Positions 6,745 through 7,864 of a stretch of DNA of 64,000 nt are shown in pieces. Numbering within the stretch: the first letter of the stretch is position 1; each line of letters starts with the position of its first letter. The DNA comes from Herbiconiux sp. SALV-R1 (GTDB lineage Bacteria > Actinomycetota > Actinomycetes > Actinomycetales > Microbacteriaceae): NCBI RefSeq assembly GCF_013113715.1, contig NZ_CP053344.1:2728001-2792000 (forward strand), written 5' to 3'. The notes below the pieces were generated by a model. The model ran no database searches. It was not told the origin of the DNA and worked only from the letters and a program-made list of their open reading frames with translations. The translations under genes and the position numbers were made by a program.

Positions 6745-6800
6745 TTCTTGCGGACAAAGTCCGACCGAATGTCACTTCCGACGGACTTTGTCCGCAAGAA
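6745..6800. repeat. 56-base palindromic element, copy A
   Basis: The arm TTCTTGCGGACAAAGTCCG (6745-6763) is perfectly inverted at 6782-6800 around an 18-base loop. Each arm is itself a small hairpin (CGGAC, AAA, GTCCG). This two-level symmetry resembles paired REP sequences (REPINs) of other bacteria. Copy B at 7809-7864 has the same arms with one mismatch. The element sits between divergent genes, so it is not a simple terminator for either. Confidence 0.9.
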
Positions 6801-6869
6801 CCTGACCACGCCACATTCGACCTTGTGGATAACTCACTTCCGGGTGCTTGCGAGGCGCAGGATCGTCCC

Positions 6870-7802
6870 ATGACACCGTCGCTTGGCGCCCAGCAGTTCC
6901 CCGACCGTCCATTCACCGTCGCCGAGGCACGGGAGCACGGTGTCAGCCGCAAGCGCTTAGGGGCGCGGGATCTCACGGCTCCGTTCTGGGGCGTGCGCAT
7001 GAAGAACGACGGGGAGTCGGCGACCAGCGACGATCCATCGACCACACCCGGGCGATGCCGAGCCTTCTCCTTGCGGATGCCCGACCACGCAGTCTTCAGT
7101 CACATCACAGCCGCCGAACTGCACGGACTTCCGTTGCCTCGCGCGCTCCGCAACCTCTCCTCCCTCGACGTGACTGTGCCGGAGGGTGAGCGTCCGATCG
7201 ATGCGAAAGACATTCGCGGTCACTGCCACCGGCTCGACCCGATCGACATCGAGGAACTCGGCGGGCTTCGCCTCACGACGGTGGCCCGCACCTGGTGCGA
7301 TCTCGCCTCCGTGCTCGATCAGGTAGAGCTGGTCGCGGTCGGCGACCGCATCATCTTTCACGACAAGCCGTACGCCACCCGCGACGAGCTCGCTCGCGCC
7401 GTGGATGCGCATGGCCGCCGCTGGGGCGCCCGTCCGCTTCGCGCGGTTCTTCCGCGCCTGAGCGATCGCGCCGAGTCACCCCGAGAGTCGCGTCTGCGGA
7501 TGATGATCGTCGACGCGGGTCTCCCAGCGCCGTACGTGAATCCGGAGATCCCCTGCACCTGCGGCTCGATCCATCGCATCGATCTCGCCTATGCAGCCCT
7601 GCGCATCGGCATCGAGTACGACGGCGATCACCACCGCACCGACCGTCATCAATGGCGCAAGGACGTCACGCGCATCCGTCATCTGGAGGCCCTGGGATGG
7701 TCGATGGTGCGCGTCACTGCAGGTGACCTCGAGTCACCGGCCTCGCTCTTCCGCACTCTCCGCGACAAGATCGACGAACGCATCCGATCTCTGACCCGCT
7801 GA
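6870..7802 (+). CDS. AbiEi-type winged-helix / DUF559 endonuclease-like protein
   Basis: 310 residues from ATG 6870. An in-frame GTG at 6825 lacks a ribosome site. The N-terminal third resembles the AbiEi antitoxin-type wHTH (FTVAEAREHGVSRKRLGARDL, then a basic strand with a WGVR end). The C-terminal domain (about residues 210-310) is DUF559, a Vsr-like PD-(D/E)XK fold: RESRLRMMIVDAGLP, HRIDLAYAALRIGIEYDG (catalytic Asp and Glu-type positions at about 235-252), then HQWRKDVTRIRHLEALGW. Such proteins are common in actinobacteria with no settled function. GC content is visibly lower than the neighbours, and both sides carry copies of one palindrome, which suggests transfer as a unit. Confidence 0.8.
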   Translation: MTPSLGAQQFPDRPFTVAEAREHGVSRKRLGARDLTAPFWGVRMKNDGESATSDDPSTTPGRCRAFSLRMPDHAVFSHITAAELHGLPLPRALRNLSSLDVTVPEGERPIDAKDIRGHCHRLDPIDIEELGGLRLTTVARTWCDLASVLDQVELVAVGDRIIFHDKPYATRDELARAVDAHGRRWGARPLRAVLPRLSDRAESPRESRLRMMIVDAGLPAPYVNPEIPCTCGSIHRIDLAYAALRIGIEYDGDHHRTDRHQWRKDVTRIRHLEALGWSMVRVTAGDLESPASLFRTLRDKIDERIRSLTR

Positions 7803-7808
7803 GCGACG

Positions 7809-7864
7809 TTCTTGCGGACAAAGTCCGATGGAAAGCACTTTCGGACGGACTATGTCCGCAAGAA
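7809..7864. repeat. 56-base palindromic element, copy B
   Basis: The same left arm as copy A (7809-7827) faces an arm at 7846-7864 with one mismatch, around an 18-base loop whose sequence is partly alike (shared CACTT and CGGA words). It begins six bases after the DUF559 stop codon and ends 20 bases before the convergent deoA stop, so it could also act as a bidirectional terminator. Equal length and equal arms show common origin with copy A. Confidence 0.9.

Follow-up and report, generated by a model that had tools for sequence, protein, structure and literature searches.

An AbiEi-like DUF559 nuclease gene of Herbiconiux framed by a multi-copy palindrome family, with a possible RAYT-like role

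A chromosomal gene of Herbiconiux sp. SALV-R1, which encodes an AbiEi-like protein with a DUF559-type nuclease domain, lies between two matching palindromes that belong to a family dispersed through the genome. The gene is found in the window, as we call the whole stretch of 64,000 nucleotides that was analysed (NZ_CP053344.1, positions 2,728,001 to 2,792,000). Palindromes and nucleases of this kind are associated; the association is specific to the protein lineage, with both partners diverging together, and they co-occur in three of four families. Moreover, the palindrome arms covary and the catalytic residues are intact. With moderate confidence, we favour the reading that the nuclease plays a role like that of the RAYT transposases, although it is an unrelated enzyme, and that it would recognise its own palindrome family and drive the copying or maintenance of this family; we infer that it binds, cuts and copies or mobilises the palindrome. 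As an idea drawn from sequence comparison, a RAYT-like role or specific binding appears well supported, because the palindrome is multi-copy and linked to the gene within the genus, and because the relation recurs in other genera.

Table 1. Positions in the window of the nuclease gene, its domains and the framing palindromes
Feature	Position	Strand	Basis
Palindromic element A, upstream twin; arms 6745-6763 and 6782-6800, 18-nt loop	6745..6800	.	Hairpin and arm matching; one of 44 family-1 elements
Nuclease gene, 310 aa; AbiEi-like N-terminal and middle parts, DUF559/MTES_1575 (Vsr-fold) nuclease	6870..7802	+	Models, alignment, structure
Winged-helix-like N-terminal region, residues 14-58, presumed DNA reader	6909..7043	+	PADLOC AbiEi models, AlphaFold, Foldseek to Rv2827c 1zel
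C-terminal nuclease domain, residues 201-310	7470..7799	+	52-homolog alignment; Foldseek to I-Bth0305I catalytic domain 3r3p
Palindromic element B, downstream twin; arms 7809-7827 and 7846-7864, one arm mismatch	7809..7864	.	Hairpin and arm matching

The listed open reading frame starts at an alternative GTG at 6825; the ATG at 6870, which yields the 310-residue protein, is the likelier start because the family alignment begins there. The flanking genes encode a DinB_2 protein and a pyrimidine nucleoside phosphorylase (deoA). The initial annotation had stated that the interval between the palindromes is filled by the nuclease-like gene alone and that the composition of this gene is unlike that of its neighbours. 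Both statements hold, as the nuclease reading frame is the sole content of the interval and has a GC content of 66.6% (GC3 0.78), against 72.0% (0.97) for deoA and 69.7% (0.88) for the DinB gene.

With regard to the protein, the PADLOC AbiEi models match its N-terminal and middle parts, and the Pfam models MTES_1575 and DUF559 match its C-terminal part, both with scores slightly below the curated cut-offs. In an alignment of 52 homologs, which are 29-87% identical to the window protein, MTES_1575 is matched by 45 and DUF559 by 36 at E <=0.01, and the residues S203, E206, R210, P221, D238, E249, Y250, G252, H255 and D265 are invariant. A Foldseek search of the PDB with the AlphaFold model (pLDDT 93.3, pTM 0.89) gave no match at E 1e-3 or better, the first match being the AbiEi-type antitoxin Rv2827c (1zel; 269 columns, E 1.8e-3, TMq 0.42), and the nuclease part resembles the catalytic domain of I-Bth0305I (3r3p; E 0.04, TMt 0.77). 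The protein shares with antitoxins of the AbiEi/MenA type a distant fold likeness over most of its length as well as the AbiEi model matches. Unlike antitoxins of the Rv2827c type, it has a nuclease domain whose active-site residues are intact, it has palindromes on both sides and dispersed elsewhere, and it lacks an adjacent toxin partner, the AbiEii nucleotidyltransferase toxin of the type IV toxin-antitoxin system AbiE being absent from both flanking genes. The nuclease fold and the conserved acidic and histidine residues are shared with I-Bth0305I and with DUF559/Vsr proteins such as VsrA of Caulobacter, as far as the latter is described in PMC12907096. Unlike I-Bth0305I, the protein is tied to a palindrome family and not to a host-gene target, and its gene sits in the deoA-DinB intergenic gap, where no intron, intein or interrupted target, the trait of a homing endonuclease, was found.

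The domain matches also bear on a self-recognition or addiction system, in which the nuclease would attack DNA according to the presence or absence of the palindrome and the dispersed copies would be a cost or a mark. PADLOC models of AbiEi and of restriction enzymes match part of the family, and the account of the MTES_1575 nuclease domain in PMC3710099 places it in conflict systems. Nevertheless, we regard such a system as very unlikely, given that the adjacent genes are of the housekeeping type, that 600 pattern stretches from viral contigs yielded no confirmed relative and that a marker role does not need palindromes flanking the gene in so many species. Among plasmids, relatives occur in 8 of 72,556 records, with about 30-34% identity.

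The two palindromes are 83% identical over 59 nt, and both form hairpins with 19-nt arms and an 18-nt loop. Element A ends 69 nt upstream of the likely start codon and element B begins 6 nt past the stop codon. Alignment and arm matching bear out the initial description of two palindromes of equal length with 19-base arms and one mismatch in B; the additional claim that each arm is a mini-hairpin stands in so far as a single arm does fold, but the hairpin is weak. At up to 3 mismatches, the 19-mer arm has 4 matches in the window and none in 100 dinucleotide shuffles. In the whole genome (G000; the 15 other genomes of the genus that were compared are G001-G015, making 16 in total), a 16-nt arm pattern gives 38 and 36 matches at up to 2 mismatches, in comparison with 0 and 1 for the reversed pattern. 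A paired scan around the arm matches identified 44 elements of this family (family 1) in 30 loci of G000 and 40 in 27 loci of its sister species, G014. The palindrome is multi-copy in the loci examined, as a count of copies in the genome, suggested at the outset as a check, makes clear. The elements share a core of 56 nt, and four of those in G000 contain identical 50-mers within unrelated flanks. Across the 84 elements, the arms covary at offsets +1, +2, +5, +7, +17 and +18 (shuffle p <=0.007), which indicates that the palindrome itself is maintained. A diverged subfamily, the arms of which begin TCCCCGACAAAGTCCG, was observed at L156:1516-1565 and at G000:C1:3714397 (in L158), with similar copies in G014; a separate cognate gene for it is not obvious.

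The main rival of a RAYT-like role is a DNA-binding regulator of the AbiEi type that only binds, for which the palindromes would be operators, one pair being autoregulatory and the rest forming a regulon. Such a protein could also co-diverge with its sites. AbiEi-family proteins are described in PMC7319586 as binding inverted repeats, AbiEi two and Rv2827c four of 23 bp, at their own promoters; the fold of the window protein resembles that of Rv2827c, and element A has a suitable place ahead of the start codon. On the other hand, a matching copy lies just 3' of the stop codon, neither neighbour is an AbiEii toxin and the catalytic residues are invariant in the aligned homologs. The genomic sites of the elements also speak against operators. 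Crude gene calls classify 35 of the 44 elements of G000 and leave 9 unclassified; 2 of the 35 fall within a predicted gene and 33 outside, with 18 of the latter in convergent gaps, 14 in tandem gaps and 1 in a divergent gap. Since the intergenic gaps of the same loci comprise 19 convergent, 24 tandem and 11 divergent ones, the divergent gaps, which hold promoters, are under-used, with 1 of 33 elements. The copy behind the gene, the scarcity of elements in divergent gaps and the invariance of the active site all argue against a regulator, and we consider this explanation rather unlikely.

The link between the gene and its palindromes was followed in the 16 genomes of the genus for four element families (1, 2, 3 and 5), where a cognate gene was defined by at least 70% protein identity among the homolog loci examined. 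Arm matches of family 1 number 74 in G000 and 69 in G014, and 0 or 1 in each of the other 14 genomes, which does not exceed the reversed control. The family-1 ortholog is present in the same two genomes alone (86% identical), the next best relative being 52% identical. Family 3, that of the genes of G002 and G003, has 7 and 12 matches in these genomes, and family 5, that of the genes of G005 and G010, has 29 and 28 matches in 15 and 16 places; for each of them, the 14 other genomes have none. Taken together, elements of families 1, 3 and 5 are present in all 6 gene-positive genome-family cells and in none of the 42 gene-negative cells, which are not independent because sister species share descent.

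Family 2, defined by the element at L032, fits a strict co-occurrence badly and is not exclusive. It has 24 matches in 12 places in G000, 13 matches in 7 places in G014 and 13 matches in 9 places in G001, together with weak matches in G009 (4), G013 (4), G006 (3), G002 (2) and G015 (1), and none in the other 8 genomes. Relatives of the family-2 gene with 44-59% identity exist in the 15 other genomes, none of them reaching the 70% of a cognate gene. The 57% relative in G001 is framed by a related element, and the nearest relative in G014 (L308) is framed by another palindrome type; the family-2 copies of G014 may be relics. The proposal that copy number in relatives tracks the gene thus stands for families 1, 3 and 5, in which gene-bearing genomes alone carry the elements, and for family 1 in particular, where the palindrome is above control in the two ortholog-bearing genomes of the genus only; it does not extend to family 2, which also occurs without a close cognate. 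The L308 locus (G014:C1:1667.7-1668.7 kb) contains a second nuclease gene of G014 and its palindrome type shows apparent tandem copies downstream.

The relation between gene and palindrome recurs with other sequences in other genera. Homolog loci were picked by protein similarity alone, and 133 of 140 had flanks of sufficient length. Matching flank twins (score >=40) were found at 75 of the 133 (47 of 63 loci from the genome set and 28 of 70 from named contigs), leaving 58 without a twin. In the controls, such twins were present in 10 of 395 windows shifted within these loci, in 11 of 1500 pairs of mismatched flanks and at 2 of 164 neighbouring ORFs. Exact-word twins of at least 15 nt agree with this, being present at 42 of 105 loci, against 0 of 403 shifted windows and 20 of 2000 mismatched pairs. 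The twin-bearing loci include those of Microbacterium testaceum (L068), Leifsonia virtsii (L066), Promicromonospora (L078) and Jiangella (L072, L083, L088). The twins are significantly palindromic on at least one side in 61 of the 75 pairs and on both sides in 50; the 25 that are not clearly palindromic on both sides include those of family 3 (L231, L232) and of Bifidobacterium (L098, L111), which are not significantly so. In a sample of the phylum, 46 of 296 genomes have a close member (E <=1e-30), counting the genome of the window, and the best 29 other loci of this sample have twins in 16 cases (14 of 27 once L266 and L268, included previously, are left out), versus 3 of 812 mismatched pairs. 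No twins were found at L310 and L320 in this test, and the partially matched L308 scored 25, which rises to 56, with twins of another type, when the start of the gene is restored.

The palindromes follow the lineage of the protein and not the genome. Among 73 loci with twins, like elements are shared by 14 of 16 pairs of loci when the proteins are at least 70% identical, by 5 of 11 at 60-70%, by 5 of 52 at 50-60%, by 1 of 2549 below 50% and by none of the 36 pairs of paralogs within a genome. Over all pairs, the similarity of the elements is only weakly correlated with that of the proteins (rank correlation 0.18; Mantel p 0.001), because elements cease to be alike once the proteins share less than 50% identity. 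Ordinary intergenic hairpins or terminators, with only an incidental link to the gene, would be stable and located near 3' ends as these elements are. We consider them extremely improbable as an explanation, in view of the scarcity of matching twins at neighbouring ORFs, the tracking of protein lineage rather than genome and the agreement between element and gene presence in three of the four families.

The history of the locus is relevant to a further alternative, an insertion-sequence-like transposon, of which the twins would be the terminal repeats and the scattered copies the MITEs. Synteny between deoA and DinB can be read in 11 of the 16 genomes, 4 of which carry the gene and 7 a gap of 80-214 bp; gene and flanks span 1.01-1.24 kb of the interval in the carriers. 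This size difference would suit a transposon, as would the fact that solo elements are far more numerous than the gene. Conversely, one family-1 gene was found in each of G000 and G014, the next paralog shares 38% identity and, in G000, has a different palindrome on its flanks, and a target duplication is not readable in the diverged intergenic DNA. A transposon of this kind is, in our view, fairly improbable. In G003, the gene aligns in two pieces and the downstream twin is missing, and the gene of G002 at this position is framed by a different element. The nucleases of G000 and G002 are about 47-48% identical and the adjoining deoA 89%. From these identities (48% against 89%) and its low GC3, the nuclease gene appears either to evolve far faster than deoA or to have been replaced. 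Additionally, the gene-free gaps of L162 (G011) and L170 (G010) contain palindrome-like sequence of another type, as if the deoA-DinB gap attracted such elements.

At a genomic level, 32 of the 44 G000 elements are at sites that are also occupied in G014. The centres were compared, in a slightly looser scan, at the 23 sites where both species have a single element and where the flanks are 81-93% identical. The 18-nt centres match directly (>=15/18) at 7 of these sites, in inverted orientation at 5, two of which have near-symmetric centres, and in neither way at 11; non-orthologous pairs of elements reach such a match in 4% of cases each way. The sites therefore seem to be stable, with elements that are often replaced or flipped, since sites are shared while centres differ in 11 and invert in 5, and stable sites with a turnover of elements suggest copying. 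With regard to the other elements, 1148717, 2904015 and 3396173 have counterparts of their two flanks in G014 but lack one of the element itself, the junctions being too diverged to read, 503791/503902 are ambiguous, 3405642 has a weak element-like sequence at its counterpart, and for 6 of the 44 the two flanks could not both be matched in the G014 loci examined. At the site of the G000 element 2907883, the orthologous intergenic position of G002 (L189) has a long palindrome of a third type.

The proposed mechanism for a nuclease with a RAYT-like role would begin with the recognition, probably through the winged-helix part, of the family of palindromes found on either side of its gene. The Vsr-type domain would then probably nick or cut the palindrome or its extruded hairpin, and repair would either copy or move it to further 3' ends in intergenic DNA or replace a resident palindrome. 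Gene and palindromes would be inherited together and diverge together, so that each nuclease lineage would come to have its own palindrome. The Y1 domain of the RAYTs (PF01797) was matched neither by the window protein nor in G000 or G014, which makes a resident RAYT unlikely; it was detected in 1 of the 16 genomes of the genus (G001) and in 5 of 14 control genomes. The simplest reading would be that the nuclease itself does the work, which the inverted-repeat binding described for AbiEi-family proteins (PMC7319586) and the likeness of its nuclease domain to a homing endonuclease would fit. Several observations weigh against it: family 2 is not exclusive, 58 of the 133 loci lack a twin, 25 of the 75 twin pairs are not clearly palindromic on both sides, 32 of the 44 elements occupy sites already filled in the sister species, the overall correlation of protein and element is weak, two of the five inverted centres are near-symmetric, and neither a transposition event nor a clean empty site or a target duplication came to light. 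More tentatively, and at somewhat less than an even chance, the AbiEi-DUF559 nucleases of Actinomycetota could be a second, independently evolved class of palindrome-spreading enzymes that works by cut-and-copy, in which the cut palindrome would be repaired from another copy through the short arms and its centre replaced or flipped in place. Such repair would account for the conservation of occupied sites alongside the turnover of their centres.

In the parts of the literature that bear on them (PMC3116915, PMC8266576, PMC3733652), REPIN and REP palindromes are short, paired, multi-copy and intergenic, often near 3' ends, and the RAYTs (TnpAREP) are HUH/Y1 tyrosine transposases. Here too, paired palindromes are multi-copy and mostly intergenic, the gene is framed by its own family, and enzyme and repeat co-vary. 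Notwithstanding, the window nuclease is Vsr/PD-(D/E)XK-like and lacks a Y1 match, and by inspection the family-1 consensus has neither a GTAG nor a CGTC tag at the foot of the repeat. Despite the resemblance in logic, we do not file the system under REPIN-RAYT because its enzyme is not of the defining HUH/Y1 type. The CGTC-tagged REPs, reported in PMC3733652 to lack a dedicated transposase, are similar in being a palindrome family without a RAYT, which makes a candidate enzyme of another kind interesting; they differ in that their sequence is unrelated and in that a candidate enzyme is present here. A survey from 2025 tabulates REPs in Actinomycetota genomes, and the words RAYT, transposase and nuclease do not occur in its main text (PMC12306157). 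The annotation knew of no described system of this kind, and indeed no description linking DUF559/AbiEi nucleases with flanking palindromes was found in the open-access PMC literature.

The findings suggest that small repeats may be spread or maintained in a way so far undescribed. In the portions of the literature that we found, the enzymes linked to the palindromic repeats of bacteria are those of the HUH RAYT family. A class of nucleases that diverge in step with palindromes of their own, if true, would provide a function for many DUF559/AbiEi-like genes of Actinomycetota, represent convergent evolution of the partnership between repeat and enzyme, and offer ready combinations of an enzyme with its cognate DNA that could be tested directly.

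Two further observations concern the surroundings of the homolog loci. Most of the top-scoring shifted-window controls are twin-like repeats that lie about 0.3-2.3 kb upstream of the nuclease gene at L069, L075, L079 and L084, which suggests clusters of elements; no second nuclease gene was found near these repeats. In Bifidobacterium aesculapii (L098, 1872-2562), a neighbouring ORF likewise lies between near-identical repeats (score 162).
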